This document shows positions 5,473 to 19,938 of a stretch of DNA of 23,753 bases, in pieces. The notes below the pieces were generated by a model, which had not been told where the DNA came from, ran no database searches, and worked only from the letters and a program-made list of their open reading frames with translations. The stretch lies in the IMG/VR virus record IMGVR_UViG_3300033149_001422, positions 1-23,753 of that record. One strand, written 5' to 3'. This DNA comes from a virus. Position 1 is the first letter of the stretch, and each line of letters starts with the position of its first letter. The position numbers and the translations under genes were made by a program.

Positions 5473-5580
5473 CAAGTCAATCACCCTCCTGATTCACAGA
5501 ATTAGAAAGGGTTTGTAAGGCGCTAATTCATCCCGACTGATAATCAGTCGTGGTTTTCTTGGCGAAAAAAGATAAACTGC
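5473..5580 (+). repeat. Structured repeat, copy B
   Basis: This is the shorter partner of copy A. It keeps the 5' box CAAGTCAATCACCC and the 3' box at 5552-5580 (GGTTTTCTTGGC, A-run, GATAAAC). Hairpin 1 pairs CCCT and TGATTC with GAATTA and AGGG around ACA. Hairpin 2 is a perfect CGACTGA-TAA-TCAGTCG. The stem sequences differ from those of copy A while pairing is retained. Confidence 0.5.
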
Positions 5581-5626
5581 CTAAGTTTTGCATTTGCTTG
5601 GTTTTCATTCTTTTCTCCTTAAAACC

Positions 5627-5656
5627 GCAGGTAGCGTCCAGCTACCTGCTTTTTTT
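5627..5656 (+). terminator. Intrinsic terminator
   Basis: GCAGGTAGC and GCTACCTGC form a perfect nine-pair stem around GTCCA, followed at once by seven T. It ends 13 bases before the ATG of the nuclease gene, so it closes the short upstream transcript and could also limit read-through into the gene. Confidence 0.88.
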
Positions 5657-5669
5657 GAAAAGGTTAAAC

Positions 5670-5960
5670 ATGATACAGTATAAAAAAGGTAGCAAACGGG
5701 AGTATCAAACTCGTAATAAACTACGAAAACAGGGCTATAACGTATTACGCGCTGCAGGTTCGCATGGGGTATTCGATATCGTAGCTATCAATAGTGAAAG
5801 CGTAAGGCTTATACAGGTCAAAAACTGTAAGAAACGGTTATACATAGATAAAGGCGCTGAGCGGAGCATCGAGAACTTCAACTGCCCTGATAATTGCAGT
5901 AAAGAAATATGGGTGTACGTAGACTATGACAGGGAAAACCCGCACATCTTTAAATATTAA
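5670..5960 (+). CDS. Hjc-like Holliday junction resolvase (PD-(D/E)XK nuclease)
   Basis: The 96-residue protein has a core typical of Hjc and related archaeal-type resolvases. A basic N-terminal helix (KGSKREYQTRNKLRKQGYNVLRAAGS) carries the early Glu. HGVFDIVAI (about residues 32-40) supplies the metal-binding Asp, and VRLIQVKN (about 45-52) gives the QVK form of the ExK motif. It would cut branched DNA, for example before packaging. ATG 5670 is chosen because AAAAGG lies upstream and the longer frame from 5550 would run through the terminator. It is slightly short for the family, and other PD-(D/E)XK nucleases remain possible. Confidence 0.7.
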   Translation: MIQYKKGSKREYQTRNKLRKQGYNVLRAAGSHGVFDIVAINSESVRLIQVKNCKKRLYIDKGAERSIENFNCPDNCSKEIWVYVDYDRENPHIFKY

Positions 5961-7131: not shown

Positions 7132-7593
7132 ATGCGACCTGCGGAAATCAATCATATGCGCGCGTTTATGGCGTTCTTACAATGCGATACAATAGAAGAA
7201 GTTGCAGAGGCTACGGGTCTGCCTGTGAGTACTGTGCAATACTTGAGTAACGAATATGACTGGCAAAAGCGTCGCGCTGAACATTTTGCTAAAGTTCAAC
7301 AGTGCATAAACGAGGACTTAGATAACTTTGCAATGAAGCAAGCGCGCTTAGCCTCGAAACTGGTAGACAAGTTAAGCGAGTTATTAGAGATAGATATCGA
7401 TGGCATACAAGTTAAAAGTTTGTCAGACTTGTTCGAAGCATTTGATACAGGCGTAGAGACTATACAAAAACTGATACGAGCTAAACCCGCTGATAGAGAT
7501 ACAATTCAGAATACTATTAACATTAATTTCGAGTCTAAAGCTGAAGAAGATGCGTTTATAGATATTATGAACGAAGCATACGAAGACTTATGA
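7132..7593 (+). CDS. terS: Terminase small subunit-like protein
   Basis: The 153-residue protein starts with a helix-turn-helix (about residues 20-45, IEEVAEATGLPVSTVQYLSN, followed by YDWQKRRAEH), the usual DNA-binding start of phage small terminases. A long helical middle and an acidic C-terminus (EEDAFIDIMNEAYEDL) follow. It would recognise the packaging start site and load the large subunit. AAAGGAAG precedes the ATG. The stop overlaps the large subunit start by four bases (ATGA), which strongly supports the role. Without that context the call would be a generic HTH protein. Confidence 0.75.
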   Translation: MRPAEINHMRAFMAFLQCDTIEEVAEATGLPVSTVQYLSNEYDWQKRRAEHFAKVQQCINEDLDNFAMKQARLASKLVDKLSELLEIDIDGIQVKSLSDLFEAFDTGVETIQKLIRAKPADRDTIQNTININFESKAEEDAFIDIMNEAYEDL

Positions 7594-9323
7594 ACCTCGA
7601 AAACCTTAAATCTACAGTTGAAAAAATAAAAGCGTTAGATACCACGCCAGAACGAAAGCGCGATTTATTGTCAGTAGTTAGGCGCAAGTATTTGAAACCT
7701 TTAGCGCGCATTAACCCTTGGGCATTCGCTGAGTATTGTGTGACTGATGATAAAGGTAGATTTTTACGGTTACAAAAGTTCCATAAAGAATGGTTAAACA
7801 TATACAAGAACGAGCAGAAAGTGTTAATAGAATCGCCTACTGGCACAGGTAAAAGCCAGATAACTTCTATAGTATGGCCATTATACAAGTTAGGCATAGC
7901 GCCAGAAACCACAATATTATTAGGCATGAAAACTGCTAAGCAAGCTCGTAAATCTATGCGAGCGTGCATGAGTTATATTTCACAATCTAAAGAGTTGCAT
8001 GAGATATTCCCCGACTTAAGACCTATGCCGGACCCGCAACGACCCTGGCAAGAGATGCAATGGAGCAAGCGTGACGGGTTCATAATTAAACGACCTAGCT
8101 ATATTAAAGACTTGAGCATGGAGCCCATAGGCACAGATACTAACACGTCAGGCAACCGTTGTAAACTGTTAATACTTGATAATATGCTTGATGATAATAA
8201 TACGCGTTCAAGGGAAGCGTGTCAGAAAGTAATAGAATGGTATGAGAGCGTAGCTGAAAGCAGGTTATTCAAGGACTCGCAGATAATATGTATAGATACG
8301 CCTTGGACTAACTGGGACTTATTAGCTTATCTAAGTAAGCGTCCAGAGTTTTACGCGCGTAAATATTCTATGGATAAAGCTGATAAAGATAGTGATGATT
8401 ATGTATATATAGAATGGAAAGAGCAGTTCGATGAAGAACGGTTGCAGATGGAAAAGCGCAATAAACCTGATACATATAAACGCCAGCGTCGTAGTCGCGC
8501 ATTGCTTGATACAGATAAAGAGTTTGAAACTTCTAAGATTCGTGTAGAAGATATAGACACAAGCTCGTGGGTAAGATATATAGGCGTGGACCTATCTACT
8601 AAGAAGCGTAGGGGCACGTGCATAATAACAATTAGCATAAGCCCTGATAACCAGCATAAGTGTGTAGAAGATGTAGTGTTCGGGCAATGGTCAGCGCCCG
8701 ATAGAGCTGATAAAATTAACGAAGTGTTCTTAATGTATAATCCTGTAAAAACACTAGTCGAAGATAACGCGTTACAAGACGATGTAATAGACTGGATGAA
8801 CGCCGCAGGTTACAAGCATATGCGTATAGAAGGCGTAACAACAACTGGCAATAACAAATGGGCATACATAGACTCGCGAGTAGTAGAAGTTCGTAATGGG
8901 ATATGGATATTTAAAGCGCCAGAACATTGTATAAATAATGGTAACTTGAGATTAGATTTAGACTCAACGCATTGCGCCTGGTGCAGGTTCATAAACGAAA
9001 TAGCGGATTACCCTAACGCGGCTACTAATGATGGCTTAATGGCATGGATAATAGCTAATGCGGGCACTAAAATTGATAGCGGGTTCAGAGTGCATAGCGC
9101 AGACTTGCAAGACAAGAAGATTAAAAAAATATTTGACAAATCATCTTATAGATGCTATAATGAAATATCAAGGAATCGAGGTTTTGAACCTCCAGAACAA
9201 TACGAAGAAATAGTTGATGCAATTAAGAACGATAAAGATTTATCTATATTCGATAAAAATAGCGTTAAGCTCGTGCAAGAGGACATTAAGGAGTTCGTGA
9301 GAATTATAAATGAACAGTGGTAA
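7590..9323 (+). CDS. terL: Terminase large subunit (packaging ATPase-nuclease)
   Basis: The 577-residue protein drives DNA into the prohead and cuts it. The Walker A motif is at 81-90 (ESPTGTGKSQ), Walker B at 193-198 (LLILDN), and a coupling-type motif at 232-237 (IICIDT). The C-terminal RNase H-like nuclease has its first Asp at 334 (YIGVDLS), an acidic pair at 391-392 (LVEDNALQDD) and a final Asp at 481 (TNDGLMAW). The residue after the Walker B Asp is Asn198, where an acidic residue is usual, so the catalytic carboxylate may be D197 or another nearby residue. It overlaps the portal gene by 14 bases. Confidence 0.92.
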   Translation: MNLENLKSTVEKIKALDTTPERKRDLLSVVRRKYLKPLARINPWAFAEYCVTDDKGRFLRLQKFHKEWLNIYKNEQKVLIESPTGTGKSQITSIVWPLYKLGIAPETTILLGMKTAKQARKSMRACMSYISQSKELHEIFPDLRPMPDPQRPWQEMQWSKRDGFIIKRPSYIKDLSMEPIGTDTNTSGNRCKLLILDNMLDDNNTRSREACQKVIEWYESVAESRLFKDSQIICIDTPWTNWDLLAYLSKRPEFYARKYSMDKADKDSDDYVYIEWKEQFDEERLQMEKRNKPDTYKRQRRSRALLDTDKEFETSKIRVEDIDTSSWVRYIGVDLSTKKRRGTCIITISISPDNQHKCVEDVVFGQWSAPDRADKINEVFLMYNPVKTLVEDNALQDDVIDWMNAAGYKHMRIEGVTTTGNNKWAYIDSRVVEVRNGIWIFKAPEHCINNGNLRLDLDSTHCAWCRFINEIADYPNAATNDGLMAWIIANAGTKIDSGFRVHSADLQDKKIKKIFDKSSYRCYNEISRNRGFEPPEQYEEIVDAIKNDKDLSIFDKNSVKLVQEDIKEFVRIINEQW

Positions 9324-10716
9324 TATATTCTCTAACATTAAAAAACAAGTTAAACAGTTTACTCGCGCTATAAAGTTTGCGTATTCTAATTCTGGCTTTA
9401 TAGACGTATTAGAGTATTACGTGGGTGATACTGAAGATTACTCTATAGAGAAAGCTGGAATAGAATCGTATTTACAAACGTACGAGAAACTGTTATGGAT
9501 ATTCAGAGGTACGCACGAGAAAGCCTCGCAAGCCGCAAGTGTTCCTTTCAGACTATGGGAACGCGTATCACCATCAGAACGGCGTGAGAATGTTATCCAT
9601 CCTTTAAACGAGTTATTAGCATGCCCCAACAACTTGCTTACCAGGTCAGAACTATTCCACAGGGTACACGCGTACGAAATATTAGCTGGCGACTGTATAT
9701 GGTTCATAGAGCGTGAGCCTAACGGTTTACCGCGAAAACTGCATGTGCCTATACCCACAACAGTAAAGATACGAAAATATAATAAAACTGACCAGCGTGA
9801 GTACAAGTATAATGGTGATTGGCGACACATGGACGATGTTGTGCACTTTAAGACCTTTAATCCCATTAAAGTGCAATGTGGCATGTCTGCAATATCGCCA
9901 TTAGAAGAAACTTCAGTACTTGAACTATACGAAACATTATACGGGCAATCATTCTTTGAGAATGCAGTTAACCCGTCATTATTATTCAAGAGCAATAGCA
10001 GTGTATCATCAGCGCAGTACGAACGGTTCTTAGCGGCTATGCGTAGAACACATCAAGGGGTTAAGCGTATGCATAAAGTAGACTTAATAGAAGGCGATAT
10101 TGAGCCCTTGAATATCGAGATGAAGAATCCAGCGGATGGCGACTTTATAAATGTTAAAGAACTTAATCGTGTAGATATATTAGGCGGTTTAGGATGCTGG
10201 CATCTCGTAGCTATGTATATGAAAGCTAGTAATATCCAAGAGTATAAGCGTATGTTCTGGGAATCGTTATTGCCTGACCTTACGAAAGTGCAAGAAACTA
10301 TAACTAAAGAACTGATTAGGCAGTATCCTAAATCTGAGAACATATACGGCGAGTTCGATGTGCGACAAGTATCAGGTTTAAGACCTTCATTATTAGAAGA
10401 ATCTCTCGCGTATTACAGGCTTAACCAGGTAGGCGCATATACAGCTAATGATATTAGGAGCAAGCTAGGCGAAGATGGTAAGAAACCTTGGGGTGATAAT
10501 CCGCCTCCCACTATTCCGAGAGCTCGCACTTCACATTTGACTAACGAAGAGCGTAGTAGCGTAGAAACTAATATACCGCATCCTGAACGCTATGTAGACA
10601 CATTCGCGGAAAATTTGTCTGAACGCATGGTAAAGAGTAACGGCGGACTTAATAAAGAAGTTGCTAAGAGTATAATTGTAGACGAGCTTCGAGAGCTATA
10701 CTGGAGCGCAACATGA
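9310..10716 (+). CDS. Portal protein, HK97/SPP1-type
   Basis: The 468-residue protein matches the Phage_portal pattern. It has an N-terminal helical region, then HPLNELLACPNNLLTRSELF (about 97-116), GDCIWFIER with PIPTTVKIRK (about 130-160), and HFKTFNPI with GMSAISPLE (about 175-200), followed by a long helical stem and clip region. It would form the dodecameric ring at the capsid vertex through which DNA passes. Its start lies inside the end of the terminase gene, and its end overlaps the ligase gene by four bases. The C-terminal 60 residues are helical and may contact scaffold or connector. Confidence 0.9.
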   Translation: MNSGNIFSNIKKQVKQFTRAIKFAYSNSGFIDVLEYYVGDTEDYSIEKAGIESYLQTYEKLLWIFRGTHEKASQAASVPFRLWERVSPSERRENVIHPLNELLACPNNLLTRSELFHRVHAYEILAGDCIWFIEREPNGLPRKLHVPIPTTVKIRKYNKTDQREYKYNGDWRHMDDVVHFKTFNPIKVQCGMSAISPLEETSVLELYETLYGQSFFENAVNPSLLFKSNSSVSSAQYERFLAAMRRTHQGVKRMHKVDLIEGDIEPLNIEMKNPADGDFINVKELNRVDILGGLGCWHLVAMYMKASNIQEYKRMFWESLLPDLTKVQETITKELIRQYPKSENIYGEFDVRQVSGLRPSLLEESLAYYRLNQVGAYTANDIRSKLGEDGKKPWGDNPPPTIPRARTSHLTNEERSSVETNIPHPERYVDTFAENLSERMVKSNGGLNKEVAKSIIVDELRELYWSAT

Positions 10717-13139: not shown

Positions 13140-13472
13140 ATGAAACCTATTACTACTACATGGACTGGCGATAGCAGTTATACCACGAGCATAGGCACAA
13201 GGTTTACGGTTTTAAGAGTATCTTTAACCTATAGAGATGGTTCTGGTAACCTCACGAGTATTACTAATGATTGTACTGTATCTATTGATAAGACTGAAGG
13301 CGATAATTATGATGAGATAGTAACAGTATTTGATAATGCGAGCGGCGCCACAAGTAATCTTGCTTTGTTTGAACCTGGCGAGTTGCGTATAGATACTGGT
13401 AGCCAGTTGAAGGTCGCATGTAATGTGGGCGCTAATAACGCATACTTAACTATAGATTATGACTTATTATGA
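13140..13472 (+). CDS. Small beta-rich virion protein, 110 aa
   Basis: The sequence is rich in Thr, Ser, Gly and Asn with alternating hydrophobic strands (RFTVLRVSLTY, DEIVTVFDNASG, LKVACNVG, YLTIDYDLL). It has no cysteine cluster or catalytic motif. AAAGGAAAAG precedes the ATG, and the end overlaps the tail-spike gene by four bases. The pattern suits a virion surface or fibre-associated jelly-roll-like protein. It and the beta-rich 142-residue protein at 15171 flank the spike. The structural role is inferred from composition and position. Confidence 0.6.
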   Translation: MKPITTTWTGDSSYTTSIGTRFTVLRVSLTYRDGSGNLTSITNDCTVSIDKTEGDNYDEIVTVFDNASGATSNLALFEPGELRIDTGSQLKVACNVGANNAYLTIDYDLL

Positions 13473-15157
13473 ATAAATATATTAACGGAATATTAGAACA
13501 CGATAAAATAAATATTGCTACTGGCAATATAGATAATTTACGAACCAAGAATTCGCCATTTGTAGATGTTACGCATCCTGATTATGGTGCTAAAGGCGAT
13601 GGCGCAACTGATGATACAACTGCTATCCAGACTGCTATAAATGCTTCTAATGGTAACCCCGTATTCTTACCCGCTGGCGCTTATAATATTAGTAGCGCGT
13701 TAACATTACCAGCTAATACAACTGTTATGGGCAGTGGACTTACAACTATTGCGCATACTAGCGCGGGCACAATCTTCGATGGTAGCGCGACTGATGCTTC
13801 TAATATACGTGTAGCTGATTTAACTTTGAACTCGGCAGTTGCTTCAACTACACCGATAATAGACGCGACAGACTGGGAGCATGGTATTATCGAGCGTTGT
13901 TATGTTAAAGGTTCAAGCCAAGCTGGTATAGGTATAGAGGTCGCTGGTAACGCAGTTAATATAGATTTAATCAAGAACCGAGTAGAAAGTACAGATATAG
14001 GCTATAGATTTCAAGCTAGTGGCGGGTCTAACCCTGATTCTGCATCCGCGTATAGCTGTTACACATATAAATGTAATAAAGGGTTTCAGTTGAACGCTGG
14101 AACTTTATTAACATTGATTAAAAGTAGATGCGATAGTTATTATACTACAGGCATCGAGATTAACAATGTTTCTCAAGTTATGGTATTATCGCCCTTATGC
14201 AAGAGCTCAGAAACGCCAGATTATGATATATATATAGATTCGACTAATTCTGCTACTATATGGGTATTGAACCCGCAGATAGCTGGTAATGCTACTAACT
14301 CGCCAGTATACGCAAACGCGCATGTGTGGACTGATGCTGGTATTCTAAGCGCTTATTCATTGAACTCTAACTTCTTTATAACAGGTAATTACCCGCAGAG
14401 CTTCGAGAATATTTGTCCTTATCCTAATTTCCCGTTCAGCCCCGCTGACAGGCTAATAGGCTGGAGCACGGGCGGCGCTACAGTTAGTAGGGTAGATTCA
14501 GACGAATATGCGCCTACTATTTATAGCGCAGAAGTTGTAAACGATACGGGTGGAGCAATCACTTTAAGCGCTAATAATGACCATAATAACCAGTTTATGC
14601 GTTATGTTGCGAATGATACAGGTTCTGTATCATTTACTGCTCAATTAGTATGTAAGACTAGTTTAGCAAATCATGTAAGGTTTAGGATAGGTATAGAAGG
14701 CGCTAGTGGTACTCAGTATAGTGATTACTCAAGCTATCATACTGGTGGTGGCAGTTATGAAGTATTGACACTTGAAAAAACTTTTACTTATACAGAAGAT
14801 TATTTTGATGTAGATGTAAAATTCTTAATAGATATTTCTAACAATGTTGCTCCTGTATATTTAAACTATGCGCAATTGTTAATCGGACGCTTGCATATGT
14901 CGCTGATTGAACCTGTAGACCTCGCGGCTAAACGAGCAGTAACAAGCACACTAAAAGTTGATAAAGACGGGCATTTGTGTGTTAAAGAGCTTACGTCTGC
15001 GCCTGCGCTGGCTGATTTAGAGCCCGGAGAAGTGGGAGTAGGCGATGGCACTGGCGCAAGTGGCGAGGATGAATTGTTCTTTAAACCTGATGCGGATAAA
15101 ATTGTGCGAATAACCGCTGATACGTCTCAATCTTTTATTAGTACAATAACTTCGTAA
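13469..15157 (+). CDS. Tail spike with pectate-lyase-type beta-helix
   Basis: The 562-residue protein contains the Pectate_lyase_3 start pattern at about residues 35-75 (DYGAKGDGATDDTTAIQTAI, then VFLPAGAYNISSAL). Parallel beta-helix rungs run to about 290 (ASNIRVADLTL, IERCYVKGS). A carbohydrate-binding-like beta-sandwich (about 310-480) follows FENICPYPNF. The C-terminus resembles a trimerisation or knob motif (LEPGEVGVGDGTGASGEDEL, then FFKPD). Phage proteins of this design bind and often cut host surface polysaccharide. Catalytic residues vary among families and I cannot place them. It probably sets host range. Confidence 0.82.
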   Translation: MNKYINGILEHDKINIATGNIDNLRTKNSPFVDVTHPDYGAKGDGATDDTTAIQTAINASNGNPVFLPAGAYNISSALTLPANTTVMGSGLTTIAHTSAGTIFDGSATDASNIRVADLTLNSAVASTTPIIDATDWEHGIIERCYVKGSSQAGIGIEVAGNAVNIDLIKNRVESTDIGYRFQASGGSNPDSASAYSCYTYKCNKGFQLNAGTLLTLIKSRCDSYYTTGIEINNVSQVMVLSPLCKSSETPDYDIYIDSTNSATIWVLNPQIAGNATNSPVYANAHVWTDAGILSAYSLNSNFFITGNYPQSFENICPYPNFPFSPADRLIGWSTGGATVSRVDSDEYAPTIYSAEVVNDTGGAITLSANNDHNNQFMRYVANDTGSVSFTAQLVCKTSLANHVRFRIGIEGASGTQYSDYSSYHTGGGSYEVLTLEKTFTYTEDYFDVDVKFLIDISNNVAPVYLNYAQLLIGRLHMSLIEPVDLAAKRAVTSTLKVDKDGHLCVKELTSAPALADLEPGEVGVGDGTGASGEDELFFKPDADKIVRITADTSQSFISTITS

Positions 15158-15612: not shown

Positions 15613-18015
15613 ATGATTTATAAAATTCAAGACTTAACTGAATATAATCCACGAAGCGTAAGCACACGGGTATTACTGGATGATTTGCGTATGCTATACG
15701 CGTGGTATGCGACTGCTAAGAAGAACGAGGATTTTAAGCATACTAAACAGCAAATTATTGATACTTATAAGAAAGCTCTAGAAGAAGCGGTTAAAAGAGG
15801 TGTAACTATTCATTATGGGGAATTGAGGAATTCTTCTAAGGAGTTGTTTGAGCTCGCTAATGTTGATGTGCCTGATAACCAGTTAGTTAAAGGTATTAAG
15901 CAAGTGTTTGGTAGTCCTGGTGGTAGTTTGTCGCAGGCTGTTAAAATCAAGCGGTATCTAAATAAGATAAATTATAAGTGGTATGTTGAACCGTTTTGCG
16001 GAGGCGCGGCTGTATTCTTCTCGTTAGATGAGAAACCTGAGAATGCTGTTCTTAATGATATTGATAACGATATCATATTTATGTATAGATATATACAAGA
16101 GAATAAGGATGCGAGTAACCTTAAACGGTTCAACTGGCGAGGTTCTCAAGCGTTGTATGAGAAGTTGTGCAAGAAGTATGAGACTAGAAACTTTAGCAAT
16201 GACCATGACCGTTTTTATACATTATACACGCTTAAACGTATTAGCTATGCTAACTCTATGCGAGATTTTGATAAGCGATATGTTAATGTGGATATATTTG
16301 AAAAAGCAGGCATGGAGAAAGCATTTGAACGCTGGAAAGAGCGACTTGATGGCGCGCATTTGTCTTGTGATGATGCTATTAAGGTTATTAAGAAATATGA
16401 TAAGAATAAAGATGTTGTGTTCTTTGTTGACCCGCCATATATAACTAAGTCGCAGAAGGGCTTTAAGAGTAAATATACTGAGGAAGATTATGAGAAGCTA
16501 ATAAATGCGCTTGATAACTTGAATAATAAGTTCTTATTAACTGTTGCTACTGATATGGATGTGCGTGGTAACTGGCATACGACTAAGCTAAAAACTCGAC
16601 ATTCTATAGCAGATGGTGGTGGCGATAAGTTTAGGTACGAAACCCTAGCGGCTAATACTGTGCTTAAAACACGAGAAGAACAACGGGAACAGCTTGCTGA
16701 AGAAATAGGCGATTACTATATGGTGGAACAGCCTAAGGGTAAAAAGTTTGATTCTGTTATCCAGTATCATTTACGCGGTATTTGGTCAAATAGACGCTGT
16801 AAACAGCTTAAAGAATGGTTTAAATCACTTAAGAAGGGTAATATACCGAGAGAGTTAAAAGGGGACGATATTGAGGCTATATATAAGCAAATATGGACAA
16901 AATACGATTGCGAGTATTTAACTGGTAGTTTAGAAGATATGAGCAAGGAAGCTACACGAGTAGACGACCGTAGAGGCGATGTTACAAGAGCTATTGATAA
17001 GTTCTTGAATAGGAACGCGCCTGATTTAGATGAGCTGGATATTGCGAAGATTGTTAATCGCGGCAATGCGCATAGCGACTGGCGTAATCTTGCTCCTAAC
17101 GGTGAATACTTGATTGGTTGGACTAATAATGTTGTTAAAGTATGTATACAAGATTTAGATGATAATATATTCTATCCGCTACGCGATAGAATACTCGAGA
17201 ACGAGGAGGGCGATAACTGGTTGTGCGAGAAGAAGGCGTTACAACCTCTTGCTTGGCTTACGCTTGTTACTCCTGATGAGCCTGTATACGAAGCTGAACC
17301 TGAGCAAGTGGGCGCTACGAGAGAGACTGCTGGTAGATTTTACTTGATGGCTAGAGCTAAGGTTGAATACGGGGTGCAGAAAACAGATTTCCACGAGTAC
17401 TTTTATGAGTTTATTCGCGTATATGATAATAAACATTTTAAGAGCGAGAAAGAACTAAGCGGTAGATGGGATTTTAAACTTATACCTTCTAGTAAGGAAT
17501 ACGCTAAAGCTCCTGAAGATGAGTTCTGGATGGGTAATAGACCTACTATACAGTTGCCATACAGCGCGACACACGACAAAGAGGAAGAAGAAGAAAAGGC
17601 TAAGAAAGAAGGTATAGAGATAATTTGGAATGCTATTAAGAGCTCGATATTGAAGGTTGATAAGAAGCATCGCATTATTAAGGGGCCGTTCTTAGTGCCT
17701 GGCGAAGTTGATGCGCAAGGCGATATTATCACACCTGAGCAAGTCGAGCAAGCGTTTTATAGATACGCGAAGCGACATAGAAAGTATGTAAGTATTATGC
17801 ACGACCGCAAAACATTTAATCGCGGCGGGAACGAAGTGGTCGAGCTATGGTTAACTGAAGAACCGCGCATGTGGCAAGGCGCGCGCTTACCAGCTAAAAC
17901 TGGTATGGTAGGTGTATATCTTGGCAACGATAAAGACTGGCATGATGCTCAAGTTGGTAAACTAGGCGGTTTCTCAATAGGAGGTGCAGGTATACGTTAT
18001 GTCAGAAAGAATTAG
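15613..18015 (+). CDS. Fusion: Dam-type adenine methylase, LigD-like phosphoesterase region, XkdF-like prohead protease
   Basis: The 800-residue protein has several parts. Residues 15-75 form a helical module (LLDDLRMLYAWY) like that of the ligase. The D12-class N6-adenine methylase has motif I EPFCGGAAVFF (126-136), NDID (148-151) and DPPY (273-276). Residues about 480-655 resemble the 3'-phosphoesterase domain of LigD, with HSDWR (His487, Asp489, Arg491) and IGWT, then a GRW strand. The conserved second His and Tyr of LigD are not evident. Residues 686-796 match XkdF-type protease (VDAQGDIIT, IMHD with His730, GGFSIGG with Ser788). The protease would process the prohead and may release the upstream enzyme. 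Methylase and protease are well supported; the middle is tentative. Confidence 0.82.
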   Translation: MIYKIQDLTEYNPRSVSTRVLLDDLRMLYAWYATAKKNEDFKHTKQQIIDTYKKALEEAVKRGVTIHYGELRNSSKELFELANVDVPDNQLVKGIKQVFGSPGGSLSQAVKIKRYLNKINYKWYVEPFCGGAAVFFSLDEKPENAVLNDIDNDIIFMYRYIQENKDASNLKRFNWRGSQALYEKLCKKYETRNFSNDHDRFYTLYTLKRISYANSMRDFDKRYVNVDIFEKAGMEKAFERWKERLDGAHLSCDDAIKVIKKYDKNKDVVFFVDPPYITKSQKGFKSKYTEEDYEKLINALDNLNNKFLLTVATDMDVRGNWHTTKLKTRHSIADGGGDKFRYETLAANTVLKTREEQREQLAEEIGDYYMVEQPKGKKFDSVIQYHLRGIWSNRRCKQLKEWFKSLKKGNIPRELKGDDIEAIYKQIWTKYDCEYLTGSLEDMSKEATRVDDRRGDVTRAIDKFLNRNAPDLDELDIAKIVNRGNAHSDWRNLAPNGEYLIGWTNNVVKVCIQDLDDNIFYPLRDRILENEEGDNWLCEKKALQPLAWLTLVTPDEPVYEAEPEQVGATRETAGRFYLMARAKVEYGVQKTDFHEYFYEFIRVYDNKHFKSEKELSGRWDFKLIPSSKEYAKAPEDEFWMGNRPTIQLPYSATHDKEEEEEKAKKEGIEIIWNAIKSSILKVDKKHRIIKGPFLVPGEVDAQGDIITPEQVEQAFYRYAKRHRKYVSIMHDRKTFNRGGNEVVELWLTEEPRMWQGARLPAKTGMVGVYLGNDKDWHDAQVGKLGGFSIGGAGIRYVRKN

Positions 18016-18538
18016 AATTACTGGCGATTGTCCGCCGGGCGAAGTCTGCGACCTTGAAGACGTGCTAATTGAAGAAATAGCAGTTGTTGACGAGGGCGCA
18101 GTTGGCAAGGCTAACGCTGTTATCACGAAGAGGAGGGATAACATGGAAGAACAACTCGAACAAATAATCGCTAAGCAAGACGAGATAGTTCGTGAAATTG
18201 AAACTTTGAAAGAAACTGTGTATGACAACAAATCAGTTGACAAGAAAGATGATGAGCAGGATAACGAGTCAATTGATAAATTGCTTGAGAAAGCTATAGA
18301 CACGATTTCTCGCGCTTTAGATGTTTCCGCAGATAAAGTGCGCGAAGCGCTTGATGTCCTTAAAAAACCGAAGGAGTATAAGGAACCTGAGGATTATTAT
18401 GATGAAGAGGACGAGAAGAAAAGTAGTACTGCGAAGTCTACGAAGTATCGTGAAGCGTTAGAAGACTTGAAAGAGTTAGCTAAGGAAGGGTTTATTAAAC
18501 CTGAAGAATTAGCTGAAGCACTAGGAGGTGTTGAATAA
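17999..18538 (+). CDS. Scaffold-like protein carrying the end of the protease domain
   Basis: The 179-residue frame overlaps the protease gene in a different phase. Its first 45 residues (RIRITGDCPP, then DVLIEEIAVVDEGAVGKANA) look like the strand-plus-VD-x-A segment that normally follows the catalytic Ser in prohead proteases. After that come a coiled coil (MEEQLEQIIAKQDEIVREIE), an acidic disordered stretch and C-terminal helices (EDLKELAKEGFIKPEELAEALGGVE), as in capsid scaffolds. ATG 17999 lies 14 bases after GGAGG; a GTG at 17984 is the alternative. It may be expressed by frameshift from the protease gene or by its own start. Confidence 0.65.
   Translation: MSERIRITGDCPPGEVCDLEDVLIEEIAVVDEGAVGKANAVITKRRDNMEEQLEQIIAKQDEIVREIETLKETVYDNKSVDKKDDEQDNESIDKLLEKAIDTISRALDVSADKVREALDVLKKPKEYKEPEDYYDEEDEKKSSTAKSTKYREALEDLKELAKEGFIKPEELAEALGGVE
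18143..18538 (+). CDS. Internal-start scaffold protein, 131 aa
   Basis: Inside the preceding frame, AGGAGGG (18131-18137) stands five bases before an in-frame ATG at 18143. This is the strongest ribosome site in the neighbourhood. Translation from it gives just the coiled-coil and acidic scaffold part, without the protease tail. The lambda C/Nu3 genes use the same layout, a scaffold nested at the end of the protease frame. The stop TAA overlaps the capsid gene ATG (TAATG). Confidence 0.55.
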   Translation: MEEQLEQIIAKQDEIVREIETLKETVYDNKSVDKKDDEQDNESIDKLLEKAIDTISRALDVSADKVREALDVLKKPKEYKEPEDYYDEEDEKKSSTAKSTKYREALEDLKELAKEGFIKPEELAEALGGVE

Positions 18539-19938
18539 TGCCACAGAGATTTACTAAAGAAGAAGGACAACTTATTCGAGATTTAGCTGGTTTAGTAGCG
18601 CTTGGCAAGGAGCGTAAGAATAAGGAACTGTTCAAGAACGAGCTACGCTCAGAGTTTAAAGAGGAATTTGAAAAGAAAATGAAAGCTCTTGAAGATTCCT
18701 CGCTTATGCCTGTTAATAAGAGTTATGGTGGTGATTTCCAGTATGTTGATATAGACAAGAGTTATGATGAAACTAATCCTATACAGAAAATGGTAAGTAC
18801 ACCATCAGAGCTGGCAGAGGATACCAAACTCGCCAAGTCTATACAGTTGGCTAATGATAGAGCTTTAATCTGGGGCGCAGTTAAGAAGATATCGCCCACA
18901 CATACGCCGTTTTATCAAGAAATGTTTAACGGCACGTCTAAATTAAGTAAAGCATTAGCAGATGTTACAGGCGCGGGTGCTGAATGGCGACCTACGGTTA
19001 CGTCCGCAGACTTCATCGAGCAGACGTGGGCTAAGAGTAAACTTGCTTCTTATTTCCATCACGAGCCTATACCTATGCACGTAGGTAAAATTGAACGACC
19101 CGGTGGCGAAGCTAGTATTAGCTGGTATAGACGGTCTGCGAGTTCAGAGGATGATATTGCGGCTATTACTGCATCTACGCCTGATACAACTTCAGTTGAG
19201 TGGGATCCAGAGGAGCTAGCCGCGCGTGTGCAATATGAACAGAAAATGTTGGAAGATTCGCCTGTAAATTTTACAGATTGGGTTAGACGCAACTTGCAAA
19301 CCAGCGGCGCAATTCAACTTGACTGGGTTACTATGAATGGTGATACGAATATCTCAAGCCCTATGGATTCCGACCTTACTAGTAGCGCTGATGTGCGCGC
19401 ATGTTTTGATGGCGTTCGTAAACTTACTCAAAGCGACCATAAGATAGATGTATCAGATACTATATCAGTTACTACTTTGCGAGAAGTATGGAAAGAGCTC
19501 GCGCCTACAAGCGGTTTCTACGATTATTCTGATACCGAGAATCTCGTATTAGCGTTGCATCGTAGAGGTTGGCTAAGATTCCTTGTCATCGCCGAGCTAT
19601 TAACTAAAGAGGAATATGGCGAGGGCGCGACCATACTTAGCGGTAAACTCGATGATATATTTACTATACCAATCGAAGTTACGCCAGTTGTGCGCGCAGA
19701 CCTTAACGCGTCTGGTGTGCATGACGGTTCAACTACTAATTATACAATTGGTCAGTTTATCAACCATAGAAGTTTCGCATATGGTGATAAGCGTAGTATA
19801 ACAATTGAATCTGATAAGAATATTAAAACTGGCAGATACGATGTTGTAGCTACTATGCGTATAGATTTCCAGCCGTTGTATGATGCTAGCTCTGAGCCTT
19901 TAACTGCTACAATGTATGGTATAAATATTAATACTTAA
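18538..19938 (+). CDS. Major capsid protein, HK97-fold
   Basis: The 466-residue protein follows protease and scaffold, as the HK97 head order requires. The N-terminal 65 residues are helical and charged (KELFKNELRSEFKEEFEKKMKAL), a delta-domain-like region that may be removed in maturation. The body has an N-arm-like stretch, a spine-helix region (DPEELAARVQYEQKMLED) and beta-rich P and A domains with VTMNGDTN (about 264-271) and a strand-rich end (GRYDVVATMRIDFQPLYDAS). The family call rests on length, secondary-structure pattern and context more than on a strict motif. It overlaps the scaffold gene by one base. Confidence 0.8.
   Translation: MPQRFTKEEGQLIRDLAGLVALGKERKNKELFKNELRSEFKEEFEKKMKALEDSSLMPVNKSYGGDFQYVDIDKSYDETNPIQKMVSTPSELAEDTKLAKSIQLANDRALIWGAVKKISPTHTPFYQEMFNGTSKLSKALADVTGAGAEWRPTVTSADFIEQTWAKSKLASYFHHEPIPMHVGKIERPGGEASISWYRRSASSEDDIAAITASTPDTTSVEWDPEELAARVQYEQKMLEDSPVNFTDWVRRNLQTSGAIQLDWVTMNGDTNISSPMDSDLTSSADVRACFDGVRKLTQSDHKIDVSDTISVTTLREVWKELAPTSGFYDYSDTENLVLALHRRGWLRFLVIAELLTKEEYGEGATILSGKLDDIFTIPIEVTPVVRADLNASGVHDGSTTNYTIGQFINHRSFAYGDKRSITIESDKNIKTGRYDVVATMRIDFQPLYDASSEPLTATMYGININT

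Follow-up and report, generated by a model that had tools for sequence, protein, structure and literature searches.

Why should a viral head gene join a DNA methylase and a relative of a DNA end-healing enzyme to a prohead protease? The question is raised by an IMG/VR virus record, which consists of one metagenomic contig, 23,753 bases long, and was analysed over its full length (hereafter the window). A first-pass annotation of the letters had described one 800-residue frame in which a D12-class adenine methylase, a LigD phosphoesterase-like region and an XkdF-like protease are joined, and had proposed that the enzymes are carried into the capsid, in line with the published idea of polyvalent phage proteins. 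The frame at 15613-18015 is intact, with 800 codons, and we call its product P0001. What had not been noticed is that larger proteins of this kind recur in other viruses, that the present fusion is a pared-down version of them, and that a ligase gene is adjacent.

The locus and its gene order

The head genes of the window (Table 1) are arranged in the order terminase, portal, nucleotidyltransferase-ligase, a few structural genes, fusion gene, possible scaffold gene and capsid gene. The start of the fusion gene (15613) falls between those of the portal (9310) and capsid (18538) genes. For the possible scaffold protein, profile matches in Pfam and PHROGs were weak. The head operon also encodes, at 13469-15157, a pectate-lyase-like protein, the gene of which follows that of the ligase and precedes that of the fusion. 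Elsewhere in the window, a protein with a transglycosylase SLT domain (2036-2683) is likely a lysis or entry enzyme, and an archaeal-type Holliday junction resolvase (5550-5960; Pfam Hjc, 4.9e-9) hints at an archaeal host.

Table 1. Head genes of the window and domains of the fusion protein P0001 (PE, LigD-type 3'-phosphoesterase)
Feature	Position	Strand	Basis or content
Terminase large subunit	7590..9323	+	phrog_38, 4e-42
Portal protein	9310..10716	+	PF04860, 2.8e-42
Companion protein P0007, 720 aa	10713..12875	+	Nucleotidyltransferase, zinc ribbon, ATP-dependent ligase
Fusion protein P0001, 800 residues	15613..18015	+	N-terminal helical domain, D12 methylase, LigD-PE-like domain, XkdF protease
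N-terminal helical domain N96, residues 1-95	15613..15897	+	Common to the giant relatives
D12-class N6-adenine methylase, residues 96-350	15898..16662	+	Pfam PF02086, 4.2e-17
Probable first PE strand, residues 361-391	16693..16785	+	Profile match; VIQYHLRG at 382-389, Gln384 = LigD Gln40, His386 = LigD His42
Insertion of ~92 residues (392-483) inside the PE domain	16786..17061	+	No relative found
LigD 3'-phosphoesterase-like core, residues 484-655	17062..17577	+	Foldseek, family alignment; His487, Asp489, Arg491, Gln544, Trp548
XkdF-type head maturation protease domain, residues 678-793	17644..17991	+	Pfam PF14550, 1.5e-12
Possible scaffold, charged, coiled-coil-like, overlapping the end of the fusion gene	17984..18538	+	Sequence, and position between protease and capsid
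Major capsid protein	18538..19938	+	PF05065, 8.6e-9; phrog_1623, 3.7e-14

The companion protein P0007 begins with a weakly N96-like N-terminus, followed by the nucleotidyltransferase, the zinc ribbon, the ATP-dependent ligase and a presumed OB-fold tail. Its nucleotidyltransferase retains both aspartates (Asp218 and Asp220) and its ligase retains the catalytic lysine and the motifs (Lys383, Glu434, Glu527 and Lys550). In the window, the ligase is therefore encoded by a gene of its own, downstream of the portal gene and without a protease domain.

Methylase and protease domains of the fusion protein

Both ends of the enzymatic part were as first described. The MethyltransfD12 profile of Pfam matches residues 110-307 with 63.1 bits, against a cut-off of 22, and the match includes motif I, EPFCGG (126-131), and motif IV, DPPY (273-276), of which the DPP is invariant in the 13 sequences compared. 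This part of the protein was modelled mostly at high confidence. Judged by its motifs, it is a D12-class N6-adenine DNA methylase, with methyl transfer as the predicted activity. At the C-terminus, the Peptidase_S78_2/XkdF profile scores 48.1 bits against a cut-off of 24, and the two candidate catalytic residues that had been pointed out, His730 and Ser788, are invariant in 23 out of 23 XkdF domains. By the same kind of evidence the C-terminal domain is an XkdF head maturation protease, predicted to cleave head proteins. The N-terminal domain, which is named in neither Pfam nor PHROGs and which we call N96, has helices at 18-37, 45-61 and 68-82 in the predicted model. It exists in two flavours and is repeated across most of the giant proteins described below; a role in packaging or interaction may be suspected.

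The middle region is a relative of LigD 3'-phosphoesterase

Residues 355-655 gave no match of their own in Pfam or PHROGs. A tblastn search led to the ligase of ANMV-1, a virus of an uncultured archaeon, with 28% identity over 114 residues. Across this domain the full-length model of P0001 was poor, with mean pLDDT values per block of 20-45, but residues 455-672 modelled separately reached moderate confidence (pLDDT 70, pTM 0.68). When this model was compared to the PDB with Foldseek, the best four matches (3p43, 3p4h, 3n9b and 5dmp) were all LigD-type phosphoesterases, with E-values of 4.7e-5 to 5.4e-3 and target TM-scores of 0.52-0.78, followed by a sharp drop to a START domain with a probability of 0.13. 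The PE domain of one relative just exceeds the Pfam LigD_N cut-off (31.2 versus 31.1 bits), and LigD-type 3p4h is also the top match, though not a significant one, of the family profile against PDB sequences, with a second co-linear segment (E 0.069). Finally, the family motif VxQxHxRGKSxHxDxR...GWT bears the LigD metal ligands. By its modelled fold and by these sequence comparisons, the middle region is a relative of LigD 3'-phosphoesterase, as the first reading of the letters had it.

Whether the domain is still an enzyme is another matter. The manganese ligands of LigD are His42, His48 and Asp50, and its phosphate contacts are Arg52, His84 and Tyr88; point mutants of the last two are inactive in the Pseudomonas aeruginosa enzyme (PMC8656161). 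His487, Asp489 and Arg491 of P0001 correspond to His48, Asp50 and Arg52, three positions that are invariant in 21 out of 21 aligned relatives (alignment A1); the equivalent of His42 is kept in all 21 as well. The second conserved His and the Tyr of LigD, reported missing at the outset, are replaced by Gln544 and Trp548. At the first of these positions Glu is the most frequent residue in the relatives (10/21), with His in one case only, and at the second all 21 have Trp.

No equivalent of His42 is found beside the HSDWR of P0001. A probable explanation lies further upstream, at residues 361-391, where a profile match suggests that the first metal-binding strand is present and has been displaced by the insertion of ~92 residues; the inserted segment matches only itself in the profile mapping of the relatives' regions. 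With 361-391 spliced onto the PE core, the local score rose from 8.1 bits to 20.0, which is more than was reached by any of 492 segments taken from P0001 outside the PE core (15.2 at best) or by any of 2000 shuffles, of which the best came close with 19.1. Given this displaced strand, outright loss of the first metal-binding His is the less likely interpretation. The domain thus keeps, according to model and alignment, the fold of LigD and the greater part of its metal site, without the full canonical site. Since His84 and Tyr88 are replaced, we regard it as a homologous fold and do not class it as a canonical LigD phosphoesterase. The suspicion that the middle part is inactive or altered was thus justified by the family-wide replacement of these two residues, and has to be refined as regards the first metal-binding strand; on these residues, catalytic activity is doubtful.

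A recurrent family of giant head-gene proteins

Pattern-based searches of IMG/VR starting from single proteins gave no close relative and one distant terminase match. A degenerate DNA pattern derived from the shared PE core, on the other hand, retrieved 42 IMG/VR loci, about 40 of which are true relatives. Thirty-two regions surrounding relatives were retrieved, their domains were mapped with purpose-built profiles and 31 relatives were analysed. Two pairs (L066/L074 and L055/L079) are near duplicates, so that the independent counts are slightly lower than those given here.

The fusion genes of the relatives mix N96, an ANMV-type nucleotidyltransferase, the D12 methylase, the ATP-dependent ligase, the PE domain (PE1), a second PE-like repeat in which the HxDxR motif is mostly lost, and XkdF. 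The most complete case, L063 (from the same record as L030), has every domain of the family, and two methylases, in a single frame of 1784 residues; nucleotidyltransferase, ligase, methylase, PE and XkdF are found in one chain in L063 and in L060, which is cut at its 5' end. Besides the window, the combination of methylase, PE and XkdF in one frame, for which a search had been suggested, occurs in six of the 31 relatives, all virus records (L049, L053, L054, L060, L063 and L070). PE and XkdF share a frame in 18 of the 31, and in about 13 the PE domain has no XkdF in the same frame. At all 16 loci where the three genes were found, the PE fusion lies between portal and capsid, with the three genes on one strand in 15 of them. 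L014 aligns with P0001 in the same order from N96 through XkdF, and L061 is split in a way that resembles the window, with nucleotidyltransferase and ligase in one gene and PE and XkdF in another. Judged by domain content, the window encodes, divided over two genes, a cut-down version of the giant head-gene proteins that recur in these relatives and reach 1784 residues.

No conserved cleavage motif could be established in the family: one candidate, the KQxDP found ahead of many PE domains, was dropped because it coincides with the start of the domain and is not repeated at other junctions.

Several relatives have peculiarities of their own. In L061 (7045-9260) the PE domain is divided between two genes, the strand with HNDLR being apart from the remainder; between the halves lie genes that by inspection look radical-SAM-like, methyltransferase-like and glycosyltransferase-like, and an Rfam search of this break showed no intron. 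Intein-like parts occur in L055:1807-4011 and L075:3245-8473; one position is inside the nucleotidyltransferase gene, with a LAGLIDADG match, and the other immediately precedes the ligase domain (HNYFVGEILVSNS). For the proteins of L019:1855-5529 and L036:9925-12525, Pfam gives weak hits with pyrimidine dimer DNA glycosylase which, if real, would add another DNA repair enzyme. In L007 (5489-9175), a stretch of 96 residues (515-610) is 56% identical to part of a Thermoanaerobacterium phage THSA-485A protein encoded after the portal; by this identity it is a further domain that the family shares with cultured phages.

Among 50,697 annotated phage records the PE domain was found in ANMV-1 only, and there was no plasmid match. 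Family members are present in 4 of 392 sampled Planctomycetota genomes, a count that includes two metagenome-assembled genomes. In L082 (5443-7956) and L081 (1167-3896), which come from Planctomycetota genomes, they are virus genes with the order PE-methylase and no XkdF in frame, located near a capsid gene and, in L082, also near a portal gene. Together, ANMV-1 and the Planctomycetota members indicate that the hosts of the family include an archaeon and probably planctomycetes too. Among annotated phages, the protease domain of the window is closest to those of the methanogen viruses psiM2 and psiM100; for this virus an archaeal host is plausible on sequence grounds.

Comparison with known systems

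The nearest annotated protein is AJP62006 of ANMV-1 (KP703175, 'ATP-dependent DNA ligase'), which is encoded directly after a portal-like gene and combines a nucleotidyltransferase, a ligase and the same PE domain, the latter being absent from the annotation of the record. It differs from the window in that ligase and PE form one chain, without methylase or XkdF, and in that the prohead protease has a separate gene. Conversely, phrog_13242 (450 positions, function unnamed) has a methylase-like and an XkdF-like half in one profile, both of which match P0001, but no PE domain is recognised in it. Bacterial and archaeal LigD 3'-phosphoesterases, which function in end joining, share with the PE domain of P0001 the fold, the His-x-Asp-x-Arg motif for metal and phosphate and the partnership with an ATP-dependent ligase; P0001 differs by the replacement of His84 and Tyr88, the insertion in the domain and the viral head context, and no LigD polymerase domain was seen among the proteins scanned.

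Another enzyme is joined to XkdF in gp18 of Arthrobacter phage Salgado, beside the head genes. It is annotated 'RNA ligase', although we take its sequence to resemble a 2H phosphoesterase. This fusion has neither methylase nor LigD-type PE, and another annotated head protease gene adjoins it. Rhizobium phage RHph_TM16 has a protein annotated 'DNA methyltransferase/prohead protease', which was considered and rejected, for it has 210 residues only, in which only the protease is recognised. In Otagovirus, the genes of 151-152 residues located between portal and capsid (L095:2498-2953, from phiPsa374, and L096:2432-2890) are annotated 'DNA methyltransferase' and match XkdF. The label fits phrog_1530, the aligned part of which (positions 218-351) is protease; going by these alignments, the name has probably been wrongly propagated.

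The fusion of an enzyme to XkdF is thus a known database pattern, given the methylase half of phrog_13242 and the other enzyme in Arthrobacter phages. What is new is the PE- and ligase-bearing class of XkdF fusions, methylase-XkdF alone being already present, unnamed, in PHROGs. We found no description of this class in the open-access literature, a scope which leaves aside most subscription papers and all preprints.

The polyvalent proteins invoked in the first-pass annotation are large multi-enzyme proteins of phages with terminase and portal genes, proposed to be packaged and injected, with the adenine methylase as a hub among their domains (Iyer et al. 2017, PMC5512222). P0001 fits this idea in spirit, since it too belongs to a phage with terminase and portal genes and unites several enzymatic domains. 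The published work, however, is centred on zincin metallopeptidase, SNF2 ATPase, ParB and further domains (PMC5512222), and zincin MPTase, SNF2, ParB and LPD domains gave no Pfam match in P0001 or in the relatives scanned, so that the only node shared with that network is the N6A methylase. The text of PMC5512222 mentions neither 'LigD' nor 'DNA ligase', and 'prohead protease' appears once, in the title of a reference. The same article reviews DarB of phage P1, a methylase-helicase which is located in the virion head and protects phage DNA in cis; DarB thus offers a genuine earlier example of a methylase that is packaged.

What may the fusion be for?

The head protease of tailed phages is made as part of the prohead, and anything fused to XkdF is therefore placed to enter the shell. 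We favour, at a probability only slightly above one half, the reading that P0001 is a head-maturation polyprotein in which XkdF is the prohead protease and the N-terminal part is an enzyme cargo that acts on the viral genome at or after injection. P0001 would be made in the head operon and would enter the assembling prohead by means of its protease, and perhaps also of N96. XkdF would then act inside the shell, and the methylase and LigD-PE-like parts, free or tethered, would stay with the packaged DNA alongside the companion nucleotidyltransferase-ligase. At injection or later, the methylase might shield the viral genome from restriction while ligase and PE tend DNA ends and nicks. The fusion, its three domains, the gene order, the recurrence and the intact motifs of methylase, protease, nucleotidyltransferase and ligase are read directly from sequences and models. 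From these we infer packaging, self-cleavage and injection, a PE activity and a biological purpose; packaging, cleavage and injection of the cargo fit a protein that is fused to the head protease and encoded between portal and capsid. That the ligase of P0007 bears no protease speaks against this reading; its packaging may be argued from gene position and the weak N96 match.

A broader and more tentative proposal, to which we give somewhat less than even odds, is that the family constitutes an undescribed class of tailed-virus head polyproteins, in which the prohead protease would carry nucleotidyltransferase, ATP-dependent ligase, tandem LigD-type domains and adenine methylase into the capsid, and proteolysis would free the kit; the genome would then be injected together with enzymes for its repair and protection. 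As to the favoured reading of P0001 itself, the repeated linkage of ligase, nucleotidyltransferase, methylase and PE across the relatives counts in favour of a packaged cargo; against it stand a PE domain without His84 and Tyr88, the roughly 13 relatives whose PE has no XkdF in frame, ANMV-1 with its separate prohead protease, and the failure to establish a conserved cleavage motif.

Those relatives in which methylase or PE has no XkdF in frame, and the stand-alone late methylases that are common among phages, would agree with a reading in which the enzymes act in the infected cell. The fusion would then fix their ratio to late head proteins, the protease would cut itself off early and enter the prohead alone, and methylase, PE and ligase would mature the replicated genomes before packaging. 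We consider this rather unlikely, because XkdF is fused in 18 of 31 relatives and because the genes lie between portal and capsid wherever all three are found, which is the position of a virion part and not that of a replication gene. It is more improbable still that PE, perhaps along with the methylase, serves the protease precursor for DNA binding or as a scaffold and so couples shell maturation to DNA entry, the chemistry being dispensable. Such a role would agree with the family-wide lack of LigD His84 and Tyr88, with the large insertion in P0001 and with the loss of HxDxR from most second repeats. Yet a scaffold does not need invariant equivalents of His48, Asp50 and Arg52 and a His42 kept in 21 out of 21 relatives, and the motifs of methylase, ligase and nucleotidyltransferase are intact. 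As to the possibility that assembly produced a chimaera, or that neighbouring genes were joined by chance, a single metagenomic contig of this length for which no near relative was found might raise the suspicion, but the six other virus records with methylase, PE and XkdF in one frame, and the collinearity of L014 from N96 to XkdF, make it extremely improbable; we consider it already refuted by these independent recurrences.

If the fused enzymes do travel in the particle, then many uncultivated viruses of archaea and bacteria would enter already equipped for DNA repair and protection from restriction, which they would otherwise have to make once inside. The prohead protease would gain a second role, that of cargo carrier, and LigD-type end-healing domains would have a viral home beyond cellular end joining. 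The idea of polyvalent proteins would become testable on a clear and recurrent architecture.
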